Positions 1 to 64,000 of a DNA stretch of 64,000 nt are shown here, piece by piece. The notes below the pieces were generated by a model. That model was not told the DNA's origin. It did not search any database and worked only from the letters and a program-made list of their open reading frames with translations. The DNA is taken from the NCBI GenBank assembly GCA_016169945.1, contig JADLSH010000231.1, positions 620,001 to 684,000 of the forward strand, in the 5' to 3' direction. Source of the stretch: Trachythela sp. YZ-2020 (taxonomy: Eukaryota > Cnidaria > Anthozoa > Malacalcyonacea > Clavulariidae). The translations under genes were made by a program, and so were the position numbers. Within the stretch, counting starts at the first letter, position 1; each line of letters begins with the position of its first letter.

Positions 1-291
1 ATCGAGTCAACACAACAGACGCTATAGCCGTTTCGAGTAGCGATTTTTCGGGCCTTCGAAAAAAAAAATGCAAGATAACTTGAGCAGTACTGTATGGTGG
101 CCGAGAACTGCCAATACTTTTTTTCGTAATTTTTATTAGGAAATTGTTTATTAAACAAATATTTTTTTAAAAACATTTTAAAAACACGATCAAATTTAAA
201 TTGAAATTAAAACAAAAGTAAAATAAAAAGGAAACAAAATTTAAAATCAAATCAAAATCATTTTTTTTATCGGCCGAGCGCTGCCACTACC

Positions 292-2109
292 ATGATCCTT
301 TGCGTGCATCAATTTAATAAATGGGCAAACTTTGCAGCCAAAATGTCAGCAAAGCGACAGCGTACAACAACTGCGAAGAAGAAAGGTGGACAAAGTGTGA
401 AAGAAGAGATTATCGTTCAAAGAATGAGCTCATCTGTAAGCGGCAAAGCACAGAAATACAGCAGAATCGGGTCTAGAGAGTTCGTCCCATTCGAAAAATA
501 TGACGGTGAGCTTACGCTGGAAAATATCATGGATGCTTGCCAGGCGCACTTTGCAAAGCGCATAGACAAAGACATGGTGTGTGATGTTTTGGCTGGGGAA
601 CAGGGCCCTTCCTGTCGTAAAGTCGAACATATTCCCGATGTAAAAGTCATCCATGTACGATTTGTAAAAAGCTGTGATCTTGTCATGGATGAAGCGCAAG
701 AAGAAAGCCCGTTTAATGATAACGAAGATGATTATTTACCACCAGCGTTATTAGGTCCATCGGATTCTGAAGTGAGTATAAAAATTGAGTGATATACATA
801 CTCATAGGCTCCTTGTATACCCCCCCCTGGCCTCTTGGAAACATCGGGGAACAGGAGAAATGAAAAATGTTCCACTCATCCGAGGGGGACTTGTTACACC
901 TTCTATTTGACTGGTGCATAATGTCTGGATCAAATCCATGCATGCCCACCTCCTCCACCCCCCGGGCATTTGTTGGGCATTTTCTAACTGCATGTGCTCC
1001 AGGGTTGGGCATTTGCTCACGAAAGTCATCCCTGGGGTGGAGAATTTGTCAATAGGAGAAATTTGGCAAATACTTTACTTTGTCACTTTTTGCTGTAATA
1101 TGGAGTTCATCTAACAAAGATATCCATTATTAAATACAAGCAAAGTGTCGAAAGCTTTGTCCAGGAGGACAATATTTTTCCAGGAGGTTGCAAAGAAATT
1201 TAGCATTCATAAATTAACACAATTTATGGTCGTTTCTATTTTGCTAGCATAGTTTCAAGAGGCCAAGTGATGCAGCTGGGTGTTCTGCGAGTCCTATAAA
1301 ATGTCATTCTCTCTCAGGAATCCCAGTTACAAAGAAGAAACCCATCAAATCCTACCAAAAAAGTCTTTCTGTAATCGACATGCTCAATCTAGGAAAGGTG
1401 ATTTCCAAAAGTTCAACAATCATGGTAACTCTTCACTCGTTTGATTTGTCTGAAATGGAATGGACTCAACTACCAACACCAGTTGCATTCCGCGTTGATG
1501 AGGAGCCATTTGGGAGTGGAGGTTTCAGAAATGCCTATAAGGCTAAGAGTACCACATCAGGTTTTAGCATGGGTGGTAAAAACGTTTCTCCCCGAAGCCA
1601 TCCTGGGAATTGAAGCAATGGGGCAAACAATTGAAGGCCAAACGAGGAAGGCAGTTCAAATGCATAGTCTTGCCCAAAATTTTGCATTACAGCTGAAGGA
1701 AAAGATTCGTAAAGAGAAGCTGAAAGAGTTTGGGGCCACATTTGAGTATAAGAATGTTTACATGGGTAAAGTTGATGGTGGTGAATGTGTTAGTATTGAA
1801 GAATATATAGATGGAGATTTTATTAAGTACCTTAACAATAATGGTGATTTGTGTGAAGAGAGCGATATGATGGTAGAAAAGGCTGAATGTTATGCGCACT
1901 TCACATATGAGAAATCTGAAGGTAGACTTATTGTTCTCGACCTTCAGGGCTCAAAGTACATCCTTTACGACCCATAAATTTCTCCCTCTGAGCTGCTTAG
2001 TGGTGATGGAAATATAGCAGCAAATGCAATGGCAAAATTTTTTTCAAATCATAACTGTAACTTCTATTGTAAATTGCTTAAATTACACTTACGTCCAAAT
2101 GGAGAGTAG
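292..2109 (+). pseudogene. Alpha-kinase domain gene carried in the transposon, broken
   Basis: Exon 1 (292-771, or from the Met at 343, since 292 lies inside the terminal repeat) is basic at its N-terminus and holds a conserved block with CDVLAGEQGPSC and KVIHVRF, often seen N-terminal to cnidarian alpha-kinases. A donor GTGAGT follows at 772. The next coding block opens after an AG at 1316-1317 and carries HSFDLSEMEWTQLP, a glycine-rich loop PFGSGGFRNAYKA, the ATP-lysine region WVVKTFL, YAHFTYEKS, LDLQG and YDP, all alpha-kinase (MHCK/eEF2K type) landmarks. After YDP the same frame continues through a C-terminal Cys/His part, FFSNHNCNFYC, to a TAG at 2107. Breaks: a 1-nt frameshift near 1570-1580, an in-frame TAA at 1975-1977 just after YDP, and exon phases that do not match as written. 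It is a pseudogene of a serine/threonine kinase of unknown substrate. A small palindromic insertion (2214-2294) lies just beyond its end. Confidence 0.82.
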
Positions 2110-2213
2110 ACAGAGTTTTCTATCCAGATTGCTATACCTTCGATATCCCATGCACATTTAAATTGTTTTGAACAGGCTTCAGTGAACACCTGACAATTTG
2201 ACTTTTGATTTTA

Positions 2214-2294
2214 GGGAGTTTAAGCGTGTAGGGTGGCAACGGGACGTTCATTGACTCATTGTATTAGTTGCCGTCCTACATGCTTAAACTCCCT
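2214..2294. repeat. Hairpin MITE nested in the IS3EU element
   Basis: Two arms of about 27 bp are inverted copies: GGGAGTTTAAGCGTGTAGG near the left end and the matching ATGCTTAAACTCCC at the right, with a 26-bp spacer. No coding content. It sits between the alpha-kinase and transposase remnants. Confidence 0.7.
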
Positions 2295-2443
2295 ATTATA
2301 GAGACTAGTTGGCATGGACATTTACAATTATGTTGATGACATTTAAAGTTGTGTTGATTTATATAACAGTGAACGAAAAACACTAAAGTTGAGTTTTATG
2401 TTAAAGTTTGCATAGTATATATTTACAGTAATTATTAGGCATA

Positions 2444-3290
2444 TTACAGCCTAAAATTATCTTTCAAATAAAGAAATACGTCTTTACATTCGTTTGGCTT
2501 AATGTTCTCCCTATCAGGAATAATACGTTCACATTCGTCTCTAAACTCTGGGGTAAGGAAGTCTTCAGAGACATCAAGTACTCCTGACAGTTCAGCAACT
2601 TCTCTGAGATTATCTTCGGTCATTGGTAGGCCTGTAATATATAAGTTGTGAACTATGTTCAGAACCCGTTTCTGTACCTTTGTCTAGCCGAATGATGGAA
2701 GCCATGACCCTGCTCTCGAATAAGTATTCCAAATACCACCGTCCAATTATCTGTGGATTAGAATTACTGGTCCAAACACGTAACCACAGCATCTTTCTAC
2801 TGGCTGTATCAAGGCAACCACAAATAGCTAATGGAAACGTCGAGTTTTGGTTGCCCATTAGTTTGTCGTGGCCGTCTAACGAGTGAAACCAGTTGGATCC
2901 CTTTGTCGTAAAATTGCCTTTCCTTCTAGCTTTCTTTGCACCAATACCGCCACGATTATGAAGTCCTTCAGGATCTAAAGCGTGCATGACGTCGTATACC
3001 TGGTCTCGCGTGACATTTAGATCATGTTCTTGTCTGATCTTTCTGTGCATTGCCCGGTAACCTAACAGCTTGCCAGGTCCTCGTAATTCTTTCCCCACAG
3101 CGTCCATGACGTCTGCGACACCAACATTGTCGTCGTCGTAGTATATTTCGAAGTATCTTAGACGCCTGTCTAGGGTACGAAGGCTCCAGGTGTACTGAGG
3201 AAAGTCGCGTATCATAAAATCCAATATTTCAGATCGCCACGATTTTAGAATTTCGACTTCGACCCATTTTGCACTTCTATTGTCCGCCAT
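2444..3290 (-). pseudogene. IS3EU-like DDE transposase, internally deleted
   Basis: The N-terminal part (3290 down to 2666) starts at ATG 3290 just inside the right terminal repeat. It shows a helix-turn-helix-like N-terminus, then GYRAMHRKIRQEHDLNVTRD and the first catalytic Asp in HSLDGHDKLMG; the second is in IIRLDKGTETG. After a 34-nt gap the frame resumes at 2631 with LPMTEDNLREVAELSGVLDV and ends in IKPNECKDVFLYLKDN before TAA at 2444-2446. This tail is the usual C-terminus of the same integrase-like family. The segment between, which should carry the catalytic Glu, is missing. The 34-nt gap has GT and AG ends but is too short for a normal intron, so I read it as a deletion scar that kept intron ends. 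The protein would be inactive. Confidence 0.8.
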
Positions 3291-3755
3291 GTTTTGCTTT
3301 TATCTCGTACCCAGGACCTAAAGACGTGACCGTGACGCAAAGGATCATGGTAGTGGCAGCGCTCGGCCGATAAAAAAAATGATTTTGATTTTATTTTTAA
3401 TTTTTTTTACTTTTAATTTATATTTCCTTTTTATTTTACTTTTGTTTTAATTTCATCGTGTTTTTAAAATGTTTTTAAAAAAATATTTGTTTATAAACAA
3501 TTTCCTAATAAAAAATACGAAAAAAAGTATTGGCAGTTCTCGGCCACCATAGTACTGTACTTAGAGTCGTCTTAGTTCAATTTAGAGTATACTTCATGTC
3601 AGAATTCGAAATTTTTATTTTTTTTCACTTTCTGGATTTTTACAGTCCGAGAAATGTGTATCATGCGACTAGTTTTATTTTCCGGGTGTATGCCACATGG
3701 TTCATTTTCCGGGTGCGTGCATGTGAAGTTTTTTCTTGACAAGTCTACTTTTTGG

Positions 3756-4501
3756 CTTTTGCCACATTTCTCCACAGACATATAGTCATACTCATAGACT
3801 CATAGATATAGTACCATACTGTCACTGTCACACGGGTATTGCCGCAAATAAAACATGTCAAAGTAAAACTTGCTCATGTTGAACTGCTTTGTTTGACTTC
3901 GCGGAAGAATGTGAGAGCCGGCACCGCCACAGGCACATGAAACTTGACAATAACTTGTACATAGTCATAGTCATAGAATATAACAGATGTATATCACAAC
4001 CGTATATAATAACCGACTATACTATAGAAGCCCTTCCAGTGCGACAACGCAAATAATTTAGGACATATTGCCTAACGGACATTCAAAAATAGGCAATATT
4101 TTAATTACGAAAATATAAGCCAGAAGGTATGCCTCGTCGTTAGATAAGTTATGTGTCGTCGTTAGATAAGTTATGACAATTATGAATCGTTTGTGATCAT
4201 CCTGACAAGATATCCGCTATGGGACACCATTTTATTCGAAAAGCTAACTTAACTCTCTCGCTTAGCATTTTTTGGCATTTTGAGAGTTACGACAAAGTTA
4301 ACTCTCTCTTCCTTTTTATTTTTTTAAGCAATAGAGTTAAATCAAAATTAACTCTCTGACGTTAGTTCAAATATACCATCGGGAGAGTTAAGAAAGTGGG
4401 CGTGGTCGTTCGCAAAAGTGGGCGTGGCTCGAACTTAACTCTCCGAAATCTTAACTCTCCGATTTAACTCTCCAATTTTAACTCTCCTTTTAGTCGTTCC
4501 C
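3756..4501 (+). repeat. Truncated copy of the 9.7-kb foldback MITE
   Basis: This stretch is nearly identical to 10115-10860, from the block starting CTTTTGCCACATTTCTCC through the right terminal repeat ending CTCCTTTTAGTCGTTCCC. The left terminal repeat is absent, so it is a 5'-truncated or rearranged copy of the element at 9719-10860. Confidence 0.85.
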
Positions 4502-6993
4502 AATAGACTGGATATAGCTTCTATAGGTGGCAAAAGTGAAGCTACATTATATATGCGAAAATCACTTCCGGGGACCACGGAGTGATACAAATTTGTATAG
4601 AAATGTATGGTGGACAACGTGAACGAACGTGAATTTTCGCAAATTTAAGACACTTCGCGATCTTGTACTAACCTCATCGTTCTACCATGGATAAAAGATG
4701 TTATGTTAATGCTTTTAAAACTAAAATTATCTAGATTGCTCTAAAATATCGGCATTTGTGTTCGTTCAAAGTTGTCCTAGCGGGAATAATATTTTATCGC
4801 CAGGATCATGAGAAGACAATTTCTAGTTTGCTTTCGAAATATGGAGGCAGAATAAGATCTACTCTACTCAAAAATACCTTGAAAGGAAAGTAAATAATTT
4901 TGTTTTATCATATATGTTTAATCTTGATCAACAAGAGGTTTTTAATTCCGCCAAATTACCAAGCCTTTACAAATATACTTTTCAGTCTGTATAGATATTT
5001 GTACATGTTTAGTTGTTTACAGTACTTGTTTTCATTCATTATACTTAAAACTGGATGGCAACCCAAATATAGCCTTTATACACCACGTATATTTACCATT
5101 TAATCCATGAATGATGGATTGCCAAGCCTGTAAGTCAATGGTCCACTCTTGCCCACTCATTAGGAATTGAAATAGGTCAAGTTTGGTATAGAGAATATTC
5201 AAAACGAATACTCATAAGTCATAACTATTCATTTCTTAAGAAGTACCTTGGCCAATTACTGGAGAAACAGTCCCTTGAAATTTGTATCCCCCATTTACAC
5301 GAACCCGGGTTGAAAGACCACATCTTCAACCTGGGTTGGAAGACCCCGTGGGGCTTCTTTTTATTGCATTCACATTATAACCCGGGTTGGCTGCAACACT
5401 GGAGTCTGGATATTTGTTTTCAACCCAGACCAGCTTGAACCAACCCTGGTGTCCATGATCAGTTGTGCTGTTTTGACATTGTCAAGAAGGGAGCTGATAT
5501 AACACGGTGTCAGTACATCTTCGCAATCAGTAAACTGATTTGCGTACATACAGCACCCAAACTGACAAAACACATGAAGAAAGATCCAGACTATTTTGCA
5601 TCAGTGACCATGACTTGGTCATGACAGCTGGACCAAATGGAAACAAGGCTCAAGTGTATAAATGGGGCATTAAACAGTAGTGTTTCTTTTGCAAACTGCA
5701 GGCAAATGCTGGGAGTTGGTGGAAATAACTGGAAAATTGGTTATTTTTACAATAACAAATGTTTAGATAACAATATCTTTTAAGCAAATTTTTATATTAA
5801 AACAATAATGAACAACACACTCTGCATTTAAGATCATTTTCATGGTTGCAAGTTCAAAATTCGGCTGCATTATAAACATAGATTCACTCCGCAAAAGGCT
5901 TCCAGTTTTCCCCTGTCAGGGCCAAAACGACTCCTGTTTATAAGAGCCCAAACGGCCCCTTGGGGCTAAAACGGCCCCAGAGTTGTCTTTTGGCTCCTGT
6001 CAGGGCCAAATCGGCCCCTCTTTTAAAGAGCCAAAACGGCTCCCTAGGGCCAAAATGGCCCCCAAAAAATTACTGTGTACGTTTACATTCCAACTTGTTA
6101 ATACTAAAGTTCCTCATTGCTTATATAGTTCGTATTTCCTGTTATTCACCAGTTTTGTAAATGTTCCAGATTACTTTACATATACTATTCCATCGAGTCG
6201 GTTTATATAAGCCGCGCGTTGCATTGTTGTTCTTTCAATTGGAACCACAATGCATTGCTTCTCTAGCAGATTGAGATTTTGCCTAGCTGTATCAAATTAG
6301 TCTGCTGCCTTTCTCGCTCGCTGAGGGGAGCAAATAGAAGTGCGTAGGTCATGAAATAGAAACTGACGGATGTGTCTGGAAAGGAGAACATGTGCGAGTA
6401 AAGACCTGTTCCTTATTCTGTAGAAATGCAAGCTAGTGCACCCTTCCGAACAGCCCCTTCGCGCTTCGCTCACGATTGCAATACTTCATGTAAACCCATC
6501 ATACGCGCGTCGCTCGTCCCGCTCTTTTCTACAGAATTGTTGAATTGCGCGACGATAACAAATTGTTAAAATTGTTAGAACAAATTGTAGCAAGTTTGTT
6601 AAAGCCTGGTTTCTATTTGGTCGTAACTGTCGTTAAATAGTCTGCATTTTCTTGTGTCCTGTACATTGTCCTGTACAGTATTGTACAGTATGCAAATCAG
6701 TAACTAACTCTAACAAATCAGCAGTTACTAACTGTAGAGATATATCGGCATTCTATCACATCGGTCACATTGATGTGTTCGCGACAGTTACGACTAAATG
6801 GCAAACAGGCTTAAGTCACGAAGTTTGTACTAATTGCCAACCAGCCGTTGACAAGTCTTCAACAAGCTGGGAATAAGCAGTGCGCACACAACAAGATATG
6901 GATTTGTTGTAACAACTTTGTATAATGTTTGCTGCAGAAATGTAACAACTTGCGCATTATATATGTGGTGTTTTCGTCTGGCAGGTTAGATTG
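4502..6993. other. 3' flank of the host gene; low-grade repeats only
   Basis: No convincing gene. From 5290 to 5450 there are several CCCGGGTTG/CAACCCGGG-type repeats in both orientations, probably transposon debris. From 5915 to 6065 a GC-rich patch repeats GGGCCAAAACGGCCCC-like words. From about 6590 to 6880 the sequence is rich in CAACAAGTTG-type words and shares a segment (around AACAAGCTGGGAA) with 55.7-55.8 kb. I saw no clear polyadenylation signal close to the GON4L stop codon. Confidence 0.5.
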
Positions 6994-7116: not shown

Positions 7117-10100
7117 CTAAACAAGAATACATGTATCAGGAATGGATAATTTAAATATTATATCAGTATTTGTGGTATTTTAAACGCCGATATTATTTTC
7201 CCTGCAACATGCGAGGGGCAAATGACAGATTTAACTCTCGTACACCTTCAGAAAAATCACAAAACAAATCACAAAAATAAACACACAAAAATCACGAAAA
7301 AATCACTAAAGATAGACAAATCACAAAAATATGGAACTAGTGATCCAAGGATTGTGCAAAGTTTTAAAAGACAAATGCTATATTACATGGTTTATAGTAT
7401 AGTGCGTACGTAATTGTTGTGCATCCATGTTGTGTTGTGTTGATATTTGCATATTACGTATTTACACGAGCAATTTTTATTTGGCAATTATTTTTACCTT
7501 GACTATTTTTATTTGCCCTTGAAAATTGATGAAATGTGACAAGCTTTTGAAAAGCTAGCATGCCAGTTTTTCAACAAGTACACTTGTCAATGAAAAGCTT
7601 GTAATATTTCATCATTCGTTATTCTAAATTCGCGATGAGTGATTTATGTTTTTGCCAATATATTATAGTATAAAGCAGATAAAATTGTCTTTTGTTTACG
7701 GTTGCAATATTTGCAGTTTTATTCAACTAATTACAAATATGTCAACTCAACTTCGATTATTTCAAATTTTATTTATTTATTTATTATTTCATCGTGTATA
7801 TAAAATTTCGAGAGTACGGTTGTACACAGACTACTAAAATAAAGGCTAAGCAAACTAGAAAGTATATAGAATGCATCATACATCATAGTTATATATACAG
7901 ACGCACAAAGATACTGCAGGTGGGCCAGTTTTGACATCCGGTTTGACCCGTACGCTACATTTTAGATTTCGCCGTAACTTTGTCAATTTTTATTGTTTTT
8001 CTTTGCAAGTTGGTCAGTATGTACTGTTTTTAAAGCTCTATAAAAGGGTGTATTAGCGAAAATCACACGGTTTTTAAAACAGAAGTTATAATCGACCAAA
8101 AGTAATGAATATATAATTAGTTACGATATAATAAATATCAGATTACAAAGGTGTTAAAACTCATCCTCACCAAAATGCCATTCGCATTTGTACAACAGAG
8201 ATGTGTTCTATTAATATTGCATAACAAATATCAAAATTATGCAGTTCATACTACACTACTCTACTCTAGTGACTCTACAAATTACACTCTACGAGTCTAC
8301 GGACAGATTATAGCAACTTCTACTATCTATAAAATTCGCCAGAAACAATACAGTAGCCGTATTAATGTGTATAAATTATACACAAGTCGACTTACGTTAG
8401 ATCGCTGGTTAAATCCAATGCTGTATACTATAACTAACATATTCGATAAGGCCCAAGGGATCTCATCGGGTCTTGAATCTTGTATTTGAATTTTTTTATA
8501 TATAACCAGCACCAACTACCAAATCCAAAATATGTGACATGTTTGAGGCGAAACTTACGCTTCGGAATTTATAAAAATATTGCATAATGAATATTCGACC
8601 CATTCAGTATTGTCTATTGAATATATAAATAACAAAACGCACTACTAATCCAAAAGGCCAAAATGAAAACGTTTATTTATAAATTTGATCGTACTTCATC
8701 ACATTCCCACTCCCAGCTGCCACCATTGTGCGGTGAATATTTCGAAATTTCGTATTTTCGTTCCGTGATACTTGAACGCACGTGTTCATAGCTACCGGGG
8801 GAGTTAGCAACCCAATATTATATATAAAACGATTGTTATGATGCATTTAATACCACAACCCAAATGTTGTTCGTAAATCTAATTAAACACTGCATGAATA
8901 CAACCGAATTGAGCTATATGATAACTTGAAAGTGATTAAAAAAGTTTCAACCCCAAAGTTTAACAGATACGGTATTAATAGAGAATCTTCGCAAACACCC
9001 CCCGGAAAGTTTACACTATGATGTATGTATCTATCTATGAATGTATGTATCTATGTATGTATGATAGCTCGTGTGAATTTTCGCCCCTCATCACAATACT
9101 GCAAAGTTAAAAACTTTGCACTAAAAATGACAAAAAATATCACATGATTTTTTCAATCTCGAGTGATTTGCCCCTCGGTAACATGTAACGAATGTGAGAT
9201 AACAATATGTCGTCAAGTACTGTAAATAGCCGAATTATTTTTTATTATAGACAGGAACGTCGTCGTAGATTGTCAAATTCTCGACTAAACCCGACGGGTT
9301 TATATTTATATATTTAATCGGTTTATAGCGGACAACCGATAGGATAGAGCGAAGTCTAGGGAGGGAATGTGGCTACAGGGTTCGTGCTAGTTTAATCCAA
9401 GGAGTGATTAAGAAGTCTTAATAACAATTTTCAAGGAGTGTTTTTTTCTAAATTGACAAGACAACGAACTTCCAAAAATGGAATATGCCTCCTTTACATT
9501 TACAAAACAATAACCCTTACTGTTTAAGTATTGTGAAATTATGGCAACAAGAAAAATTTTATACTGTGGATTTTACTTTTGGTAGGAAAATAATCAACTT
9601 ATGTTTACTTGAAAAAAGTCAAGGACTATTTAAGGAGTTTTTGGAAAAAGTCAGAATTTAAGGAATTGAAGGAGTAGCACGAACCCTGGGCTAGGTTACA
9701 ATGGAAGTGTTATATTTTGGGGTGTGACTAAAAGGAGAGTTAAAATTGGAGAGTTAAATCGGAGAGTTAAGATTTCGGAGAGTTAAGTTCGAGCCACGCC
9801 CACTTTTGTGAACGACCACGCCCACTTTCTTAACTCTCCCGATGGTATATTTGAACTAACGTCAGAGAGTTAATTTTGATTTAACTCTATTGCTTAAAAA
9901 AATAAAAAGGAAGAGAGAGTTAACTTTGTCGTAACTCTCAAAATGCAAAAAAATGCTAAGCGAGAGAGTTAAGTTAGTTTTTCGAATAAAATGGTGATAT
10001 TGATGTGACAATAGTGATAAAATACTAATAGGCAACATCCGAGTCAAACAAAGAGAGCACAGTATATATAAACAATTTCGCTACCCATTAATCTTTGCAG

Positions 10101-13100
10101 ACCGCCCGTAAAGACTTTTGCCACATTTCTCCACTGACATATAGTCATACTCATAGACTCATAGATATAGTACCATACTGTCACTGTCACACGGGCATTG
10201 CCGCAAATAAAACATGTCAAAGTAAAACTTGCTCATGTTTAACTGCTTTGTTTGACTTTGCGGAAGAATGCGAGAGCCGGCACTGCCACAGGCACATGAA
10301 ACTTGACAATAACTTGTGCATAGTCATACTCATACTCATAGTCATAGAATATAACAGATGTATATCACAACCGTATATAATAACCGACTATACTATAGAA
10401 GCCCTTCCAGTGCGACAACGCAAATAATTTAGAACATATTGCCTAACGGACATTCAAAAATAGGCAATATTTTAATTACGAAAATATAAGGTATGCCTCG
10501 TCGTTAGATAAGTTATGTGTCGTCGTTAGATAAGTTACGACAATTATGAATCGTTTGTGATCATCCTGACAATATATCCGGTATAGGACACCATTTTATT
10601 CGAAATCTTAACTCTCTCGCTTAGCATTTTTTGGCATTTTGAGAGTTACGACAAAGTCAACTCTCTCTTCCTTTCTATTTTTTTAAGCAATAGAGTTAAA
10701 TCAAAATTAACTCTCTGACGTTAGTTCAAATATACCATCGGGAGAGTTAAGAAAGTGGGCGTGGTCGTTCACAAAAGTGGGCGTGGCTCGAACTTAACTC
10801 TCCGAAATCTTAACTCTCCGATTTAACTCTCCAATTTTAACTCTCCTTTTAGTCGTTCCCTATATTTTGACATTTATCTGTTTGTATATGATAAACGTGC
10901 GTCTAAGACAAGATATAGTCTGCCCATAAATAATTTAGCATCCGTGTTTGAAGTGTTCTTACTGCCACAGGAATCAAGATAGGATGATGCTCGCAATAAA
11001 AAGTACGTTTTCATATAATCACAAAAGACAGTACATTTCGTTTATGGTGAACGCCATTCGCAAAACAAAATTGGGACAGAATGCAAAATATAATCAAAGT
11101 AATGAATACTATACCTGAGCTGCAGTTTTACTCCCAAGTTCTTGCGCAATGTCTTGGTAAATATTGTCGGATAAACCTCGAGTTTGACACAGTTGTAGAA
11201 TCTTCTTGTCATCTTCCCTACAACATGCAGGAATAACTTTAATAAGTTCTTTATTGTTTATAATAACCTTGAAGTGCTCTAAAGTTACAGTACATTATAC
11301 AGGGTGTATAAAAAAAACCTGGACAAATTTGAAATTGCTCTCAACTTCGTGAAGCGGCTCCAGGTACGAAGTTTTTTATTAATATAGATTGTTTGGGTAT
11401 TTATAATGTAGATTATTATTAGTATGACAAAATTACTGGATGCTGATTGGTTGAGAGGAGTACAATTATTTCATTAATTGTACTGCAGTACAATTAATGA
11501 TTTTCCCAAAACAAACAAAATGGCGGAAATTTTGTCATGCTAATAATAAACAAGTAATCATGCGATGTTGCTCGTACAATTAGGGATTAATAGTACTCGT
11601 GATGTTTGAAAATTTTGCCAAATTGGACTCGCCCCGGCGGCTCGTCCAATTTTGGCAAAATTTCCAAACATCACTCGTACTATTAATCCCTAATTGTACT
11701 CGCCATCGCATAACCTATACATAAACGAAAAAATTCTGAAAGTTAAATTTTCAATATCCAGGGGGGGTGCCTTGTCCAACAGACCAAAAATGGCTTGCGC
11801 ACGGAATTTGAATGCTTAAAAGTTATTTTGAGTTAGTGGGTGGAAAATTTGTTGGGTGTTGCATTGCTGTTCAAAATTTCAGGGCCTTCGTCTGGTGACA
11901 AAGTTGTTAATAACTTCCATGCAAAGGCCCTTCGTCTGGTGACTAAGTTTGTTAATAACTTCCATGCAAAGGGCCTTCGTCTGGTGACAAAGTTTGTTAA
12001 TAACTTCCATGCAAAGGCCCTTCGTCTGGTGACTAAGTTTGTTAATAACTTCCATGCGAAGGCCCTTCGTCTGGTGACAAAGTTGTTAATAACTTCCATG
12101 CGAAGGGCCTTCGTCTGGTGACTAAGTTTGTTAATAACTTCCATACAAAGGGCCTTCGTCTGGTGACAAAGTTGTTAATAACTTCCATGCGAAGGGCCTT
12201 CGTCTGGTGACTAAGTTTGTTAATAACTTCCATGCGAAGGGCCTTCGTCTGGTGACTAAGTTTGTTAATAACTTCCATACAAAGGGCCTTCGTCTGGTGA
12301 CTAAGTTTGTTAATAACTTCCATGCAAAGGGCCTTCGTCTGGTGACTAAGTTTGTTAATAACTTCCATGCGAAGGGCCTTCGTCTGGTGACTAAGTTTGT
12401 TAATAACTTCCATGCAAAGGCCCTTCGTCTGGTGACTAAGTTTGTTAATAACTTCCATGCAAAGGGCCTTCACTCGCAATGTCGAAGTTCTTGTTATATT
12501 TTTCAGGTCGTTTGAGCTTGTAATCCCTCAAGCATATCGTTTATCGTTACCTTCACTGGGACCAAACATTAAAGAGAAATTTTTACGCGAATGTTGAATA
12601 AATTTTGGATGTTTTATTAACGTGGTATCAAAACAACGATACGAAACTGATTTCCTTTATCAATTTGAGAATATCTATAACGCTTTAAGGTTCGTCCATT
12701 TTAACCCACATCGCCGCGTTAGCTCGACCAACTTGATCGAATCACCTGCTGCAGAGGATGTCACAAGAATGATGCAGGCCTTGGGTAATTTTAGAAAATT
12801 TCGTATAATTAACCCCGAATTATGCGATGGAATTATACGAAATTTTCTAAAATTACCCAAATTGTTTGCTTTCAAATCTCCCTAAACCTAAGCACTCTTC
12901 TTAAGCCCCGGTCAAACGAGAATGAGAGTTGGCAAGCGAAAGTTTGCATGAGAGTTTCATCAACTGTCATGCCCAGGTCAAACCTGGTCAAACAAAGAGT
13001 TGCATGAGAGTTGACTGCATATTACCGCGCGTACCGGTCAACGAGGGGAAAACTCTCATCAACTCTTATCAAAATTTGAACCAGCTAAATAAGAACACCA

Positions 13101-16100
13101 ATATTTCACAAAGATCATATGAGTTTACATGTTGCTACATAATATAAACCATAGTATATGTGGAAGTATACTTCATCTACCTCGTCCAGATTACGGACTT
13201 CCCATCTTCGTCCACTTCAAGATTGTTAGCAGAAATTCGTTTATCCAGGTCATTTGAACACTCCTCAACTATTACATTTTGCTCTTCACAAATTTCCCCT
13301 GCGCCCTGTATCGAACAATGAGCTTTTCCTTCAGAACTACACTTTGTAACTTCTGATTTTGATATAACTTGCTTTTCTATACAAACATTCGTTGATTTTG
13401 TTTGTGGATTTTTATCCGTTCGCGCAATGTTCTCGCATTGTTCCAAAGAGCTGGGAGAACGATTTGAAGTCGCAGGCATATCAATAGCCTCGTTACTTAA
13501 ATCTGACGCAGCTTCTGATGCAGACGTCACTTGACTCTCCTGAGTTGTCTCTGGAGACTCAATGTACTCTTCATCAAAGGGATCATCCACTGACTTACAT
13601 TCGCTAGCTGGAGTACTAGGATTGCTTATATCACTGGTGTATTTTGTCAATAGTGCCATATTCTCTGTGTCATTGAAAACTTCTCGAGTTTCACTGTCAC
13701 TATTTATTTTATCCATAGCCTCATCATAATCCTCATCAGAATCTAATGCTTTATCACAATTATCCTCAATATCTTCGGATATATCGTTCACTTCCTCAGG
13801 TCTATCGATTGTGTCATCAATGATATCCCCATCCTTTTCACCGCTATTTTTATCGTTAGCATCATCTTTTTTTACCTTACGACATTTCCGTGAAATATTC
13901 CTATTTGGAGGTTTTACTGGCGTTTTACCAAATTCTCGCGTCTTAGTCAAATTTTTCTTCACATCCGGAATTATTACTTCTTCAAAGTCATCTACCTGTG
14001 AAATCAAATTATTCAGTAATACTATGTTTTGATTGGCTACCAACCTACATATAGATCATTTGTGGTGTCTGTAGGCATGATGTTAATAATAGGGTTCGTA
14101 CGCCTTCTTCCTTTTAAAATTCTATGATATTTCCATGACTTCCATGACCATTTTTACAAAAAGTCAATGACCAGAAAAATTGGTAAGTAAAGGCCAAATA
14201 GCCAATGGAAAAATCGGTCAAACCTTGCTTATAGAAACTACCATTCACAATTTTCTCGGAAAAATACTTATTGCAATTCATGACTGATAAAAGGGAAATA
14301 GATAAAAATTCTGTTTATCTAAATGGAATCTATATATTTTCCATGACTTTGAATGACAAACTGACTTTCCAGGATTTCCAGGCCTGGATTTTGAGATATT
14401 AAAATTCCATGACTTTCCAGGTTTTCCATGACCCGAACGAACCCTGGTAATTGCCACAGAAAACACAACTTATTGTCTGTAGATCCGACGTAATCGTTAC
14501 AGAACTCAAACAGTAATAAACATGGCGATTCAACGAAGGGAGAAAAGAAATAGATTGTTCGAAAGGACTGAAATAATATTGTTAAGTGCGCATTCCTCAC
14601 GTATTTAATTTGCTTTTAGATAACTTTTTGAATCGAGACGTTGTACACTAGGATACGTAATAAAATCCAGACTCTGGGTCCTTCCGGGAAATCAGAATTA
14701 GAGAACTCAACTGGTTTACGACGATCCATGTGCGTACGGCAGGTTTTTTGCCCTAAACAAGCCATCCTGGAAATGGCGTGCGATCACACGCACGCCATTG
14801 CACATGATCACGTGCGATCACCTTCGCACATGCCTCAGCTTATCAAGAAATGCGATTTATCGCATGCCTCGATTCTGGTGTAATGCAAAATATTTTATTA
14901 CAATCCCACACTTAACATAATATAATTCAAAAAAAATACGAACTACTGTATAAGTGACGATAGTCTAACTGATTAATCAGATGTTACATTCGTCACACAA
15001 TAAAAAAACATTCACTGAAAACAAAATGGAAACTAATAATGACTTTCTGACAGTCACTTAATATTTTTGTATCCTGGTCTTAAAGGCGTTGCAACTTGCA
15101 AGAAGTAAAAATTAATTGCCTAGTGCATTGGGAATGACAACATTTTTGCACGCCACTGCACGTCTAGGTTATTCATTACACCTCTACCCTATATTCCTGG
15201 GATGACCTGCCTAAATATTGACCTTTGTACTGACCTCTATCTCACTTCCACTTCCAAGTTCAACTTCTTCAAAATCATCGCTGTGGCTGAAATAACAATT
15301 AGTTTATCAAAACGATTAGTTAGAAAATGCATCAAACAACATGTTAGGCACAATATTAGGTCCTTTACATGTGAATTTGTTTTCAATATAATGTAATCAA
15401 AGGAAAATGATTGCGGATTTCAGGGCTCGATATGGAAAACATATTGTGGCCTGACAAACTATTTTCTTTTTGGTAAGTCAAATAAATTATCGCATGCAAT
15501 TTCCATTTTTGACCTGCCAAAATGGTCCACTCAGCTATTGAAAGAGTTGACAGTTAATTTTCTTCATGCATTTCAATCATTTACAATATATATATGTTAT
15601 TTACCGGATTGGAGGTCCGTATAGAGAAATATTTCTCTATACGGACCGACCATACCGGTAAAAAATATTTATTTATTTTTTAATTCCCCCCTCTGAATTT
15701 CCCCAACCTCCCCTCCCGCACGCGAATGAAGCTGCCAAATAAGGAAGTCACCTGACATGTTTATTTAAAAAATTCAAAAACGAAACATTCTGAATACAAG
15801 CATTTTTCAAGCGAACAAAAGTCGTTTAAATATATAAATATCCAATGGAAGTTTATTATAAAGGAATCAAATCTAACAGAAAACCCTCAAAAAGGTTATG
15901 TTTAGTCCGAGTCACTGTCATCGCTCAAGATAACACGCCTTTTTTTGGCAAAAGTTGCTTCTGCCAGTTCTGGAGCTCTGATCGGACTTTCTCCGATGAC
16001 AGCCTTCGATCTTTTGAATTGTTGCTCCTGAAAACATGCCTTCGACTGCAGACTGGTTGGAGTAGGAAAGGTTTTGTTGTTGGAGACTGTATTGTGATTC

Positions 16101-19100
16101 ATTTGGTTGAATTGGCGCTTGGTTTGTGGCAGAAGACGAGGCTCCTGAACGACTTAAAACGAACGACATTTTTCGCTGATGTGCTGTCGAAGCGGATTTG
16201 TAAGAATCGAGGCTTTTCAAATTCTTGTGACCGCTCAGTTGGGCAACGTAATTCTCGGGAATATTGGCATCCATTAAACGGGAAATACAGTTTTTTCTCA
16301 ACGAGTGGTTTGTGATGTTACCAGGCAATTTAGCAGCTTTCGCAGCCTTCGAAAGAAACTTGCCAATTTCGTTTTTTCCGAGTGGAGCTTTGTTATACCA
16401 GATCTGAGAACCTGGCTGGCGACGGTGGTTAATAGCCAGGAAGAATGAAGAGTCCGGCTGTTTCATTTCATCTGGTCGATGCTGGGAAAATGCACGATAT
16501 AACTGAACAGGACAACGTTCGTTGTGAGTTGCTTGCGCTGTGGGATAAAAGGCTATCTGATGTTGCCCGTCGCCGTGCCTGGTCTTTGAACCTCGTTCAG
16601 CTTTCCACAACAACAATTCGCTGCCTGTTTCGGGGTCTTTACTAATGGATACGTCTCCCCACTTTAGTCTTGTCGACTCGTCACGCGCTCGAAAGCCGAA
16701 ATGAAGGGAAAGGACCCACCAAACGGTCCTCTGGAGAACTTCTGGGTCGTGTTTTCCGAACAAACCCAACTCGAAGAACTTGTCTTCCTCTGCCGTCGTC
16801 AACTCTCGACAAGCTTGTGGTCGGTTTCCTTTGGCGTGTTGTTGGACAAGCTCTCGTTTCTTCGCTATGAGAACTTCACGGGATTTGGCAAAAACCTGGT
16901 CTTTTAAGATATTCATTGTAGAACTCTTGTCGTTCAAATATCTCTGCAAACTTCTCTGGAAGTCCTTGAGAGAAGTAGGTTCATAAACGCTGCCATTTCT
17001 CTTGCGTACATTCATGAAAAACGTCGCGAGCTGGACATTTAATTATTTGGCAGGTATGTTTTCAATTTCTCTTGTCTCGTATATTGATTCAAAGTACCTT
17101 TTAATAACATTTATGTCGTACGTCGTCTTCTTTTTCGTGTTATCTGGGCGCTGCCTTTCGATAAAACTTTGAATTTCACCCAACTCTTCGGGTGAAGTTA
17201 GACAAATTTGGCCCTCCACTGCTCTTCTAGGCGCTAAAACGTCGTTTCTATCAATGCTAGGAAGAGTAATATCTTCTGTGGGATAGTAAAATTCACTTTC
17301 ACTGTGTTCTTCATCGTCTGCAGACATTTTAATGTTAAAAAGTAGCCTTAAATAAGCTCGTCTTTAAATTTAAAAAAATAAAAACATTGGCTCTACGGCT
17401 TTAAATCTCGCGCGGTCCGTACGGGCTCATACGGACCGCTCGCGTAGCCAATCAGATTGCAGAAAAGCGTAAAATACGATTTCGGACCGCAAGAAAAAAA
17501 ATAAATGTCATTATCATCATGCGGACGTGTCCGAGATAGAGTTCGCAATGCGCCGCCAGGAATCTTTATCCATCCTTTGACTTGGTATGTCTTGAATATG
17601 TTGATTAGTGTCCCCAGCAATACAGTCAATATAGTTGAGTGGTCCTCTTCCTTCCCCTGGACGGACACGGCAGTCTCATACAGATAACGTCTGAGATGAC
17701 TTGGCCTGCAAATCGTGCTCTTCGCTGAGCAACAGTAGTTGAAATTGGTCGAATTCCATCGTATATTTCAGCTTTGGTTTTGTGCTCACGCCATGAAATA
17801 TTCTGCACTCTCATTAACAGCCGTGTGTATGTGCCATCCAGTCGGTCTTGTAGGTCTTTTTTCATAGTCCAAGTTTCACTGCCATATAGGAGAATGCTTT
17901 CGACACATGCCCTGAAGAATGCTAACTTAGTTTCCTTGGATATATTGCACTGCCAGATGGTATGGTAATCCAGTCCTACAGTATGTATTTACCCTACTAA
18001 AAACACTTTATCTCCATTACGCTGTCATTACGCAGAATATCAAGGATATACTAGTACGTGGTAAGAATATGAAATATAACAAAGTGTAGAATAAGCCGTA
18101 TTTCGATCTCTGCATGGGTTTGACATATATATGTTAACATTTTGGAAAGCCAGCGAACTATTCAGACGCAGAATATACAGTGCTATACCATATCCGTTGA
18201 CCATTGAAAGTAAGTAAATCATGCACTTGTACTTACAAATTTTACTTTTTGATATTTACCTTGGTTGTGGTTTTAAATGATTAAAGAATGAATTAAATTT
18301 CTCAATCAGATATTGCTGTCCCTTTAGGAGAGGAATTACCGTGTCATAAAGCTAGAGAACATAAAAAGCATCAATTAAAATGTGTGTTATTCATTATAAG
18401 TCAAAATGGAAAGATCGAGTAATGTCATAAAACTAACTAGTTAAGACAAAATTATAGAGGAATAGTTTACACATGGATGGGAAATGTCAAAATTGCTACT
18501 TTTCCTGTCTCCATTGTTTAAATGGTTGATGCTATGCTATTTGTCGATTATGCACTCAGAGATTACATACCTCCGCAAGCACATTAAGTCAAGTTTTGAC
18601 CCCTTGCCTTCTTTACGTTTCTCTAGCAGGCAAAAGCTTTTCAAAGCTCTCAAGGGAGCTTAGCTATATTGTGATATGCATCGTTGAATCACAATTGTAT
18701 AATCGGAATTTGCCTGGCAGCAAAAAGTAGTGACTACCAATGATTGCTGAAAGTTGTTAATAAACAGCCCTTTGTCCCATGATATACTGTAGTTCTCCTT
18801 AGTTCTCCTATAATTGTTTAGGGGCTGTTCATAAGAACCATGCTTGCTATGCCCATACCAAGATTGCTTCATATATTGTTCTATATAAATCTGTAACCTT
18901 GGGGTCCAGTGTCGGCTGCAGCCAAAAATATACAACACTGCTAGTCCCACAACATCGACTGCCCGCTTGCTAGTGACGAAGGCCAGATTTTGGTGTACAT
19001 GCTGGGCGAGATGAAATAATTTTTAGGGGAGGTGCAGTGTCTGTGCCCCTGGAAGAGTGGGTTCTTGAATTTTAGGGTTTAACACATACCCCCTAAAGTA

Positions 19101-40100: not shown

Positions 40101-43100
40101 AAATTTGCTTTAATGATTGATATAAAACCGTATTTATAAAAACACAATTCAAACAAAACATATTTTGTGAAGACTCATATTATGACAAACATCATCCCTA
40201 GAACTGATTGACTGAACTGAATGCTCTGACCATAAAGCAGAGAAATGAAGAATTGTTATGTATTTAGCCTTATTGTTAGAGCATTACCATCACTCATATT
40301 ACAGCTGGAATGTCAGATTATATCAAGACATACGTCTTATTTATTTGTTTATTTGAGCATTCTTTAAATCGTTTTGTTTTCTTGTTGTGATTGTTTAGAA
40401 ATTAAATACAAATCAAATCAATGCCAATTTTGATGAATCACAATAATTATAGAAATATATATACTGCCAAACTATATCTATCTATAACTTGTATACATCT
40501 TACAAATAGATTGAAATTTGAACTAAGTAACTATAAACTTTATCATCATTATAAATTTGCTAATACACGTAATAATATATACCAATAAAACAATTATATA
40601 CCATACCAGGAAGAGCAGGTATTGTAGGTAATCTTGGCATTTTGCCAGTGCTCTTGTATTGTTTCATGACATTATCTTGAGCACGATTTGAACACAAGTT
40701 CTTACGACGTATCTTGATTTGATTGAGAGTTTTAACTGGTAGGTAATGTTTCTTAATTTGAGTCCAATCATGACCATATTGATCAATTCCCAACACAAGG
40801 AGGTTGTCTTCGCTCTGAATGAAAGCAGCACGAGCCGAACTCGTCTTCTGCCGAGTATTAAATGCAATGTGAGGTAATAATCCCTTGTATATAAATATAG
40901 GTGATGACATCACAATCTTGACCACTTCCTCAGGAATGGGAGGACTTGATGTGGTCTCACACGACTCGTCACCAGGTTTCGACGATGTGGCAACTGATGA
41001 ATCAGATGAACGGGGAAGGTTCATTACTCTAAAAAATGGAAATAATAATCTTGAATTTAAGTTAAATGTAAATGCTGATTCCGATAAATACAGTAGATTT
41101 GTTTTCGTAGTTTACATAACGTTTATATATTTTTGACACAAATCAAAGCGATAAAAATTTTATTGAATTGAACGACGTTTCGATGTCATCTTACATCATT
41201 TTCAAGTTCATTAAAGTTCGTTACTATATATACGAGTCTTTATATAACCAGTCCTCGTTAGCAAATAATAAATCAACAATCATCACGTAAGGCATGCGCC
41301 CAAACGCGGCAAAATACTAGAGACAATTGATGATAGTTTTAACTTTCTAGAGTTAGGGTTAGGATTGGGGTTGGTTTATTTTTTATAAAAAACGTTAATA
41401 TGCCGGACTTAGGGCCTGTTCGCAGGCTATGCAGGACTAGATTCCTGTCTTTAGCCACAAGTAAGAGAAAAGGAAATAATGGATGGAAATTTGTCTCGTG
41501 TTCCTACGGAAACAATTTTAATCCACGAAATATATTTTTGTCAATAAAGCTTACATAAAATGCTTAGACTTTAGAAACGTGCGTTTCATACAACTGAAGG
41601 TGTATTCCCCCTTATGACTTCATATACATAATGATGCTGCTTTTTCTCCAAATTACCTGAGAGCCTCAGACAGTAAAACAGAAGAGAACACAGTAGGTGA
41701 TGCATGTTTATTATCCACTAATCGAGTGACGTAATTGCTGCTCGCGACATCATTGAGCCGGATCATATCTTGAAGTAAACCTTCACATGTCTCCGCTACA
41801 AAACTCAAGTCTGTATGTTCTTTACACAACAACGTCACTTGGACTAACAGTTGGGTATGCTTTAAAAGTAAAAAGTAGAAATTTAATATTAGCCCAATTT
41901 GTACTACAGACAGCTTGTCTATCCAGAACATCCATCAGTTCGTACACGTCAGGAAGAACAAAATTCAAGGACTTTTTAAGAACTTTCTAGACCATGTATC
42001 AGGACTAATTCAAAGACTATTTAGGGCCAATTTAGGCCAATTTAGGCCAACAGTACAGCTATCTATAGTGGCCAGTAAGGGACCTGTATCTTGGGAGAAA
42101 ACTGTATTTTGTGTAATGTAGAAATTGAAGTGCAGTGACCAAGTCCTGTGATTGGATGAAGCCGATTTGAAGCTAAGAGCGGGAACCGCGCGGGGTTAAT
42201 GCGGACTAGGGAGAGTTTCGAGGAGTGGAAAATTCAGTCAAAAGTTTGTTTTTGAGGGAAAATAAGCAAGAAATATCCTTTTTCATCCGAAGGCTTCAAT
42301 TTAAAATAACCGATCCTGATTTACTGGATAGATCTCACTGTTCTACACTTAGTTGCAGCAAAAATTCGAGGGGTAACAGTTTTGTATCCGAAAAAGTGGT
42401 AAATGTTTGAACGTGCCGAAGCAAACCTAGCTCTTCAACTTCAAAAAAAGCTACTTTAAAACATTTCGACGGTCCCAAAACTTGTTTTGTACTAAAGTCC
42501 AGGTATTGAAGTCTATCTTGGGCTTTTAGTCAATGCTGGAACTGCTGCTGTTAACGCGAGTAAATCCATGTTTTCCAAGTGGTGTTTTTTTCGGCTCCGT
42601 ACGTACATGGCGGCCATCATCAGTGGCCTCAAAGATGGCGGCCAAGTTATCGTTCCAGTCCTCTTAGAGTTCACTGAGTCGTTCCTGTATTGTGTGAAAT
42701 CACATACGTCAGGAGGAGAATCGGATACGACAAATCGGATCGTGTGAACAGGCTTTAGAAATATTATGTAATCTAGTGTAACACTACAAGAACAAACTTG
42801 CGAGCTCATTTACCTTTTGCAATTGTGCAATTAAGCATTGCCGTTGTTGTAACGTCATTCCAATCTCTTCACCATAATGTACCGCAGGAATATCTAACGC
42901 TGGCTGTGTTTCCAAACTACAATGACAACAGAAAATCATTATTACAAAACCTTTTTATATCCAAACATATTTAGATTTGGACCTCTTTCAAACCGTATAA
43001 TCGTAATCGATATTGATATCTGACTAACGCCGGGCGAATTTACGTGGCAATTGTAACGTTAAAGGACATTGACAACGAAAATTTGTATTCCTTATAGATA

Positions 43101-46100: not shown

Positions 46101-49100
46101 GTGAACTGGATAGATGGATGGACATCATTCAGTGTCGCCTGAAACTCCGCGGCTGCTGTGATGTTTCGCATTTTGCTCAGGTATCATCGACATAGCGCTT
46201 GCAAAAATCGGTCATCTTACCACTCTCGTGTAGCTTATCTTCGATGCTTTCCATGCAGATATTAGCCAGGAGAGGTCCCAAGGGTGATCCCATGGCAACG
46301 CCGTCTACTTGCTCGTACAGCTATCCTTCCACGTTGTAAATAACTAACCATTCGAACTTGAAAATGGTATCAAGATGATACCGAAATGTCGTTCTTTAAA
46401 TATATTATTATTATCGCTAGTTTTTGTCTCTAAATGTTTTACGAAAAAGTTACTGATAAATATTATTCAGACCCAAAAAATGTTAATTTTGTGTTTACGA
46501 GGCGAGAAATTCCTGTGAAATCATTATAGAAAGTGAGTCAGTTTATACTAAATGTGATTTTTAAGAAATTAGCGGTCTGTAAAGTATTGTTTTCAATTGT
46601 CAATTTAAGCCGTACATGTTTAGAAAACAATCGCAAATATCCGTAGAAAACTTCACAAAAACAGTCTTTTACTCAGTAAAATATCAGGAAAGATTGTCTG
46701 CATTCATGTCAACAGCAGAACAATACTTTCATAACACGACAAATTTTATGAAAAAATATAGCATCAATCCCAGCAATCATCGATGACCCGAAGCTCTTGT
46801 TGTGGTCGCGTATAAAAACATACAAAACCATCATTTTACTTAAAATTAGAAGTTTATACTCCTTAAAATATATACTCCTATATTTGAAAACGTTGTTCTC
46901 AACGCGTAATTAAGGTAATAATTATTTACCAAAAACAACAAAGTTTGCAAAAAAAGCAGCACAGAATTGACAAAAAGTTTGTGTTTTAAAATGTCTTTTA
47001 GTTCAGTTCGCCCGCGAACACAAACATTAGGAAAATTTTGGTATACTGTAATTCTCGTCGACACGAGGACCTATATGACGTCAGCATCGGTGCGGACACT
47101 TTTTGACCTCGAGCACTCAGTCCAGATTTAGTATAGGTCAGTGATTGAATGTCTTTACTGTATATATGTGTTACTCATGCATTCAATCAACAAATCTCTT
47201 ACCTCGGCTAAGAATTGCTCAAACAGTTCGGTCAACTCTTTCTCTAAACATTAAGAAATAAATCACTATTAATTTATTTTAATATTGATAAGTAACCTCC
47301 AAGCCCCACGGAGTGAATAATCGATCCGGCAAAAAAACCCAGGGACGAACAGTTAAACCAAAACATTACCATGAGTTAGTTGGCAGAAAATACAATGCGC
47401 ATGTGACAAGAAAAGATCAAATTTTTGTATAAACCATACAAAAACATTGAAAATAAATAGACAATTGCCGATTTACGCTCAGGTTGCCAAAAACAATAAC
47501 ACCGGGTCGAGGATCCATTCTAAATTTAATATAAATGCATTACAAATTCGCATCGAGTCTCGTTTGCATAGCCAAAGAAGTGTCATTTGAAAATGGCCAA
47601 TAAAGTGTAATTTGAAAATGGCCAATGAAGTGTAATTTGAACATGGCCAATGAAGTGTAATTCGAAAATGGTCAATGAAGTGTAATTTGAAAATGGTCAA
47701 TGAAGTGTAATTTGAACATGGCCAATGAAGTGTAATTTGAAAATGGCCAATAAAGTGTAATTTGAACATGGCCAATAAAGTGTAATTTGAACATGGCCAA
47801 TAAAGTGTAATTTGAACGGCCAATGAAGTGTAATTTGAAAATGGCCAATAAAGTGTAATTTGAAAATGGTCAATGAAGTGTAATTTGAAAATGGCCAATA
47901 AAGTGTAATTTGAAAATGGCCAATGAAGTGTAATTTGAAAATGGCCAATGAAGTGTAATTTGAACATGGCCAATGAAGTGTAATTTGAAAATGGCCAATA
48001 AAGTGTAATTTGAAAATGGCCAATGAAGTGTAATTTGAAAATGGCCAATAAAGTGTAATTTGAAAATGGCCAATGAAGTGTAATTTGAAAATGGCCAATG
48101 AAGTGTAATTTGAACATGGCCAATGAAGTGTAATTTGAAAATGGTCAATGAAGTGTAATTTGAAAATGGCCAATGAAGTGTAATTTGAAAATGGCCAATA
48201 AAGTGTAATTTGAACATGGCCAATGAAGTGTAATTTGAAAATGGCCAATAAAGTGTAATTTGAAAATGGCCAATGAAGTGTAATTTGAAAATGGCCAATG
48301 AAGTGTAATTTGAAAATGGCCAATGAAGTGTAATTCGAAAATGGTCAATGAAGTGTAATTTGAAAATGGCCAATGAAGTGTAATTTGAAAATGGCCAATG
48401 AAGTGCAATTTGAAAATGGCCTATTGAATTCAGTACTTCTATCAAGTTTCCAAACTCTGTCTTTTATTGACTATATGCTTCAATCGCGTCTTCAAAACAT
48501 TTATTATATCGACTTGTTCACAAATAGTGAAATAGTCAGCTTACGTGAAATTTTCACTGCTCGATCAGTTCGATACTCTTCCTGTTCTTCTTTCTGATCT
48601 TCTGCCATAAAATTGTATTCTGAGTCTTCAGGATCATCCGTGTCTGTCCCTCCTGTATCAAATAAAACAATTCCAAACATATATATATATATATATTCCA
48701 GAAGGAGGGTTATATTTGTGTGTCGAGAGTGCTCGATACCATTTAGTAGAGCAGATATAAAATAAGATGACACGATGAGACTTTTGACTTGTAATAAACC
48801 AAATAATGTAATATATATTACAATACTGCTTGAAAACCAAAATCTATGAGCTAAACTAGGAGTTACAATCACAAGGAAAGTGCTGCTTCGAACTGGACGC
48901 AACGGGAAAATGACTGGGCATACATACACAATCAACATTTGTTGCTACTATTCAACCGGAATAATAGATTTGAAATTTACTATTCTGTCTGAAGATTCAC
49001 TATTCCTTTATGTATCGTCCCTAGGGACATATCGTTTTTATGTCACCCTGTTATCGCCATGATAAAGGCACAAGTATATGTGTTAAACCACATTATCATT

Positions 49101-63244: not shown

Positions 63245-64000
63245 ATCTATACTGTACTCCCTAAATCTCTTGCAAAGGTTATCCGTTCATGCTCCTGTTT
63301 TTCTGTGTTGTTGTCTTTGCAAACAATTTTTTTGCGGTTGCTTCTTACTTCTCACAATTTTTTTTTCCAGCTAGTGACTGCCCTTTTCATTATTTTAAAA
63401 GTTACAGCAGTTTGTTTTCACCTGAGCACGTTGGCAAATTGGTGTAAGAAAACACTGAAATGACGGCCATATTGGTTCAGTATGGCGGTTGTCACATGTG
63501 CAATCCGTCCCTTATGGCACAGAAGGAAACCGAAGCACCCGGAAAAAACTTGCAGTGTTTATAGTCAGTCAAACTGGAAACACGCTTCTTACATGCAAGA
63601 GAGGCGAAATTCTAATAATCAAGAAACATCCATTGGAGAAATCCAACCCTAGTCGAAAGGTGAAAGGTGAAAGGTAACACGCATCAGTACTGTGCCACCA
63701 CGACAAACTTTCAGTTTTCTCCATTAAAAGGCAACAACACTGTGCACTGTGTATTTTATTACAGCACTAAATTTGTTTGCATTAAATTTGATCCACACAT
63801 GTTTTGAGGAATGAGATTTGCAATCTCGGTCGGCGGCAACCTGAAGTCGCAAGTCACAACCCTCATACCAGATCTATTATACGACAGTCCGAAGACGCAT
63901 TGTAAAAATGCGAAACAGAAATCTTTGCGAAACAGAAAAATGATATTTTTTGTCCCAGCGGTTTACGCAACAGCGTTGTCGTTCTTACAGTACGACCACG
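63245..64000. other. Right edge of the window
   Basis: No gene or repeat recognised. A short doublet GGTGAAAGGTGAAAGGT at about 63658-63675. No GON4L 5' exon could be identified here. Confidence 0.4.

Follow-up and report, generated by a model that had tools for sequence, protein, structure and literature searches.

Transposons of the IS3EU superfamily are reported to have 6-bp target-site duplications and, in fungi, ends of the form TAYGG..CCRTA (PMC12730594, PMC10045372), and in all of the fungal families designated TET+ a TET/JBP gene lies between a transposase gene and an alpha-kinase gene that are in opposite orientation to each other (Kojima 2025, PMC12730594). In the portions of these articles available to us, the TET/JBP dioxygenase of the fungal elements is linked to escape from methylation-based silencing and the alpha-kinase is named twice, without analysis (PMC12730594), and the ancestor of a further relative, Styx of Zymoseptoria, is modelled as an IS3EU element encoding two proteins (PMC10853768). 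Here we describe an animal element of this kind, at positions 93-3551 of a 64,000-nucleotide stretch (the window) of the genome of the anthozoan Trachythela sp. YZ-2020 (contig JADLSH010000231.1, positions 620,001 to 684,000; C170:620001-684000 in our notation). It is a single IS3EU transposon copy in which an alpha-kinase gene on the forward strand faces a DDE transposase gene on the reverse strand, both of them broken.

The element resembles the described members of the superfamily in its 6-bp duplications, its ends and its integrase-like DDE transposase (PMC10045372, PMC12730594), and it resembles the fungal TET+ families in that one pair of ends encloses a transposase and, in opposite orientation to it, an alpha-kinase. 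It differs from the latter in residing in an animal genome and in that no TET/JBP gene was noticed between kinase and transposase, although no search was aimed at one; the fungal and animal kinases are likened here by description only. Styx also combines an IS3EU-like transposase with extra genes and 6-bp duplications, but the additional genes reported for it are marked by GATA and CCHC motifs and by a DUF3577 domain, and the only kinase mentioned in its main text is a host gene duplicated nearby (PMC10853768). The association of kinase with transposase is already in print for the fungal IS3EU elements (PMC12730594). New here are its animal side and the statistics that describe it, an N-terminal kinase domain with a weak ubiquitin-like match, the apparent mobilisation in trans of defective copies and the HECT-like gene of a sister lineage. 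Our partial literature search found no publication on the association in animals or analysing the kinase, and Repbase entries may annotate the association. The features of the window element are as follows.

87..92, no strand: left target-site duplication GTACTG, directly outside the left end
93..305, + strand: left terminal inverted repeat, first bases TATGGTGGCCGAGAACTGCC, 90% identity to the inverted right end (blastn)
271..285, + strand: inner motif CGGCCGAGCGCTGCC, similar to the terminal GGCCGAGAACTGCC at 99-112 (by reading)
343..771, + strand: kinase exon 1 (exon end predicted) with the N-terminal block, 343-681, which contains CDVLAGEQGPSC
1254..2106, + strand: kinase exon 2, alpha-kinase domain, interrupted by a frameshift (near 1567) and a stop (1975-1977) and missing 21 bp at 2005
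2212..2295, no strand: inverted repeat (arms of 29 bp) in the stretch that separates the kinase and transposase 3' ends
2444..2683, - strand: C-terminal transposase fragment, 92.7-100% identical to pieces in L024-L027 and 100% in copy C334b (L044)
2663..2664, no strand: junction of a 1504-bp internal transposase deletion, common to copy C334b
2664..3290, - strand: N-terminal part of the DDE transposase, ending KGTETG, with a 30-bp deletion at 3237
3339..3551, - strand: right terminal inverted repeat, closing with the reverse complement of TATGGTGGCCGAGAACTGCC (blastn)
3552..3557, no strand: right target-site duplication GTACTG, directly outside the right end

The two ends form an inverted repeat of 213 bp each, with 195 of 207 aligned bases identical and 12 gapped positions (blastn, 90%), and with GTACTG on both sides and the opposed genes between them they bear out the original prediction that the kinase and the DDE transposase lie between the same termini. 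In front of each gene stands one of the terminal repeats, in the same orientation, and both genes are read inward. Our assignment to IS3EU is based on the 6-bp duplications, the terminal signature and the rva_4 integrase core. Duplications of 6 bp flank 6/6 copies with both termini complete and 3/3 copies of a second family; the TA..TA ends (TAYGG..CCRTA in the fungal form) are TATGG..CCATA in the window element as in all six complete copies; and the full integrase-type DDE core is seen in the relatives P0128 (rva_4, E 2.2e-21) and P0136 (E 1.6e-20), the window copy being without the region past residue 219. The inner motif might perhaps be a second transposase-binding site; copies C30, C111 and C155 combine an outer match with a looser inner one (3-4 substitutions) at a spacing of 146-200 bp.

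Positions 1429-1974 (+) of the window match Pfam Alpha_kinase (PF02816) with E 3.9e-22 (the relative P0005 does so with E 4.3e-35), structure comparison likewise supports the alpha-kinase fold, and the pieces of the gene are spaced as with an intron between exon 1 and exon 2 (predicted splicing). The kinase fold and motifs are common with TRPM7, myosin heavy chain kinase A (MHCK A), eEF2K and ALPK1, from which the element kinase differs in being encoded inside a transposon, in an identity of ~19-27% in structural alignments and in its N-terminal block, no counterpart of which was seen among their sequence matches. The ATP lysine, the D-x-Q-G motif and the zinc His/Cys set, for which we assume the roles that they have in TRPM7, are present across 87 diverged kinase relatives (catalytic and zinc positions retained in 97-100% of them), the window copy itself being frameshifted and prematurely stopped. 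The N-terminal block with CDVLAGEQGPSC, which the original prediction had joined to the kinase and which is located at 343-681, is modelled as strands plus a helix in a beta-grasp-like order, and comparison with ubiquitin-like and beta-grasp folds yields a weak ubiquitin-like structural match. The kinase of fuller members would be a protein of ~400-440 residues in which a variable linker joins a beta-grasp-like N-domain to a kinase domain of the TRPM7/MHCK type. All 294 codons of kinase exon 2 are open in two members of the window family (C155 and C334a); in the other five this exon carries a stop, frameshift or deletions. Copies C271 and C334a have a stop in the exon 1 linker where the window has a sense codon; either exon 1 ends earlier in them or their lineage makes a truncated N-terminal product.

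The transposase open reading frame (ORF) at 2611-3299 (-) matches HTH_21 (E 0.00041) and rva_4 (E 0.027), both below the Pfam curated cut-off. Over 192 residues it has 95% identity to P0121, and its identity is 75% with P0128 and 66% with P0136. The 1504 bp lost after 2663 fall at the site where fuller copies have their exons beyond residue 219, one of which would, by the usual logic of DDE enzymes, carry the third acidic residue. The window copy is dead, through the frameshift, stop and 21-bp deletion in its kinase gene and the 1504-bp deletion in its transposase gene.

A search of the window's own 578-Mb assembly with the left end gave 20 matches, 13 of which fall in six complete end pairs that delimit elements of 3.5-5.7 kb, with perfect and mutually different duplications (GTACTG, ATTCTG, TATAAC, CTTAAC, GACTAT and TAGGTC). 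Kinase and transposase are present and convergent in 6/6 of these copies, C82 being without an N-block match. A seventh copy, C155, accounts for two further end matches and has all of the parts, split by a long insert; its last bases are lost, which explains why no duplication is seen there. The remaining five end matches are weaker or partial single ends, among which C30 and C20 adjoin both a kinase and a transposase, and C123 and C111 have an adjacent transposase and no kinase in the 10 kb read. The window copy is 99.6% identical to C334b over 3,140 aligned positions, and these two share six deletions of at least 5 bp, including the transposase deletion, that are not found in any of the four other copies aligned; the duplications of the two nevertheless differ, as do the contigs on which they are located. 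Shared lesions at separate sites suggest most simply that the element was already defective when it moved and was served in trans by complete copies, in which case the kinase, like the transposase, would not be needed in cis.

The convergent two-gene layout is general in this genome. Protein searches gave at least 133 matches with the close kinase P0001 as query (304 candidates, 133 scored) and at least 132 with the transposase P0128 (1475 candidates, 115 scored); these are minimum numbers, and the counts of pairs and loci that follow are among the matches listed, which merge to at least 130 kinase loci and at least 114 transposase loci. Pairs of kinase and transposase no more than 8 kb apart comprise 69 convergent, one tandem and no divergent cases, against an expectation of ~0.1 convergent pairs under uniform random placement. 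A convergent kinase accompanies 69 of the 92 transposase loci at 44% identity or above, and 61 of the 130 kinase loci are without a listed transposase partner. An independent reading of the 23 best-scoring kinase loci outside the window family, with 1.5 kb of flank, found a transposase downstream on the opposite strand in 17/23 and any other arrangement in 0/23, and an IS3EU-like end within 1.5 kb upstream of the kinase in 18/23, compared with 0/23 for the downstream control. As for the six loci that have no transposase in the short flank, L048 has a listed one 2.6 kb off, and none was found in a further 4 kb at L032 and L052. Dispersed copies of kinase plus transposase are ~99% identical. A second young family, from which three copies were fetched, has ends of ~395 bp, duplications GTGCTC, GTGCTA and CATCTC, and a kinase ORF that spans 424 codons counted from its first ATG and is open in 2/3 copies. 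Both genes in the same convergent layout, for which the original prediction asked other copies to be checked, are thus found in the complete copies of the window family and in the genome-wide pairs alike.

The two genes have also diversified together. Kinase and transposase distances correlate with r 0.85 over 14 loci and with r 0.76 (n=11) when three near-duplicates are removed, values reached in 0/5000 permutations; 15 loci were given, L042 was left out for its short transposase match, and the comparison covers 57-60 residues of the transposase. An earlier mirror-tree test on pairs merely sharing a contig (five pairs plus two in-genome elements) gave no significant correlation (r -0.10, n=7, 3645/5040 permutations as good; 0.22, n=6, 165/720; 0.47, n=5, 13/120), perhaps because such pairs are not one element. 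When the window family is compared with that of C30, synonymous sites prove saturated or nearly so (proportion of synonymous differences, pS, 0.72-0.99) and nonsynonymous change (pN) is lower, with pN/pS of 0.36 for the N-block, 0.44 and 0.32 for the kinase and 0.35 for the transposase; both genes were thus under purifying selection while these families diverged. Within the window family, where synonymous divergence (dS) is ~0.02-0.03, the pooled ratio is 0.78 for kinase exon 2, 0.32 for the N-block and 0.67 for transposase exon 1. Selection on both genes, as considered in the original prediction, is accordingly indicated between the two families but cannot be told from neutrality inside the window's own. 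With co-diversification and selection on both genes, the kinase is a co-inherited second gene. The label of cargo therefore says too little of it, and the alternative of a stray passenger found no support.

A distant transposase group in the same genome (22 listed loci, 31-38% identical to P0128) differs in this respect: among the matches listed no alpha-kinase lies within 12 kb of any of the 22. The 22 loci were examined by match lists, and two of them were also read.

L058, convergent: HECT-like frame at 868-2049 (+), IS3EU transposase at 2616-4061 (-)
L059, convergent: HECT-like partner at 1945-3240 (+), IS3EU transposase at 4764-5501 (-)

One of the two is a complete 3,219-bp element with ends TACGGTGGC.. 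and the duplication TTTAAC, in which an open transposase frame of 482 residues faces a frame of 394 residues that matches Pfam HECT (E 9.5e-08; 32.5 bits versus a cut-off of 23.9) and, in the PDB, gives weak HECT-ligase matches only (best HUWE1, E 0.0088). The other has a homologous partner (135/222 aligned residues identical); this fragment has no HECT match by itself, and the locus continues over the rest of the query. A convergent HECT-like partner is found at 8/22 of the distant loci among the matches listed, a count that uses 56 of 116 listed rows, those excluded being lower-scoring or matching only the first 97 residues of the query. These residues read into the terminal repeat, and since that repeat is present at both ends, some excluded rows fall on the same strand as the transposase. 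Two IS3EU lineages thus keep two different signalling-type enzymes in the same position. We found no publication joining HECT, E3 ligases or ubiquitin to IS3EU elements in the partial literature searched. At L059, beside the distant transposase, positions 3-1283 (+) hold a frame that by eye resembles a retroelement polyprotein, with RNase H and integrase-like stretches.

Relatives of both proteins are widespread. At E 0.001 a protein collection contains 219 kinase and 804 transposase relatives (best 120 of each listed), and the distant kinase P0120 has 134 (best 120 of 134 listed). The kinase relatives that bear names, among the matches listed, come from the cnidarians Actinostola, Dendronephthya, Paramuricea, Actinia, Exaiptasia, Stylophora, Desmophyllum, Acropora and Clytia and from the hemichordate Saccoglossus, most rows being nameless, and several are annotated as TRPM6-like, eEF2 kinase or myosin heavy chain kinase B-like. 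With at least 130 merged kinase loci in one genome and such host-type names on cnidarian relatives, the earlier suggestion that an element of this kind might explain the scatter of alpha-kinase genes fits what was found. Viral and prokaryote contig collections held no relatives by the kinase profile A1 or the transposase profile A2. In one public gene prediction, P0007, the N-terminus of a transposase is joined to a kinase on the same strand, which hints at rearranged or adjacent elements; peptides that precede kinase and transposase genes alike, as read from the ends, P0007 included, are suggestive but weak and are not used as proof. The "alpha kinase" of PMC6505742 is EIF2AK3, and the accessible parts of PMC2838846 and PMC3019232 do not mention transposons ("transpos", 0 matches).

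We interpret 93-3551, with a probability of about 0.68, as a deleted non-autonomous IS3EU element whose fuller members have two genes, the kinase acting in trans, either on a protein of the host or on the transposase. Autonomous copies would make both a DDE transposase and an active alpha-kinase (a predicted enzyme), and defective copies would move in trans with the products of the complete ones; the kinase, acting in trans on one or the other substrate, would let transposition or expression succeed despite host control, its possible host targets including the silencing, DNA-damage or cell-cycle machinery. One reservation is that dN/dS inside the window family is indistinguishable from neutrality, a ratio that is uninformative because the family is too young. 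Between the two kinds of substrate our judgement tilts toward host control, on account of the HECT-like partner in the sister lineage and the fungal TET/JBP gene; a HECT-like enzyme in the same position would fit a slot for accessory enzymes aimed at the host. It is possible, though we think it unlikely, that the kinase is kept instead for acting on the element's own transposase (in activation, timing or self-limitation). The co-inheritance of the two genes agrees with such a role, as does a repeat in the same orientation before each of them, by which they may be expressed together, but the sister lineage has a related transposase with a HECT-like enzyme instead, which suggests that the second-gene partner is replaceable.

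That the kinases are a large host gene family beside which transposases merely insert is very improbable: public records do annotate the relatives as host genes, and two kinases followed further (L032 and L052) have no transposase nearby, but transposon ends lie outside the kinase, element-specific duplications flank both genes, the order is fixed (69 convergent pairs among the matches listed, none divergent and one tandem) and dispersed copies of the pair are ~99% identical. We give still less credence to a second gene that matters as a convergent transcription unit or spacer and not as an enzyme, since the near-complete retention of catalytic and zinc positions in 87 diverged proteins and the amino-acid constraint between families point to selection on the protein, even though the layout is convergent and the window has an inverted repeat between the 3' ends. 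The decay of the window copy and a within-family dN/dS not clearly off neutrality might recall a one-off capture, in which this copy alone picked up a host alpha-kinase as a passenger; its presence in 6/6 complete copies, the 69 convergent pairs and the co-diversification refute this idea, the constraint between families also speaks against it, and it can be virtually discounted. Beyond our preferred reading of a two-gene element with a kinase active in trans, we advance only tentatively the wider proposal that a conserved second-gene slot of IS3EU elements, convergent to the transposase, holds host-signalling enzyme effectors (alpha-kinase with a ubiquitin-like domain in one lineage, a HECT-type ubiquitin ligase in a sister lineage) that disarm silencing or redirect repair, and that cnidarian alpha-kinases are mostly transposon-derived.

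The remainder of the window contains several other features. Just right of the element, 3727-4056 recurs ~6 kb on at 10092-10427 with near-identical ORF peptides, as a dispersed or duplicated repeat. An ORF at 15918-17042 (-) with DUF3504 and phage-integrase (tyrosine recombinase) matches is, we presume, Crypton-like, and a reverse-transcriptase ORF of 479 amino acids at 56954-58393 (-) looks to be of the non-LTR type. The ORF at 40560-41111 (-) has a Myb-like DNA-binding domain resembles GON4-like and is probably an exon of a host gene. Long tandem repeats, translated as repetitive ORFs, occupy 11833-12527 and 47479-48463, and a segment is duplicated at 61857-62222 and 63047-63463, where two ORFs have a peptide of ~60 residues in common.

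Signalling enzymes are, to our knowledge, seldom part of the regular gene set of DNA transposons. A kinase that is co-inherited across many families, taken together with the fungal report, offers a testable case in which transposons would manipulate their hosts by phosphorylation. The same finding suggests that many of the cnidarian genes annotated as "TRPM6-like", "eEF2 kinase" and "myosin heavy chain kinase-like" may be transposon genes, and if this is true, kinase genes derived from transposons would distort the kinome counts.

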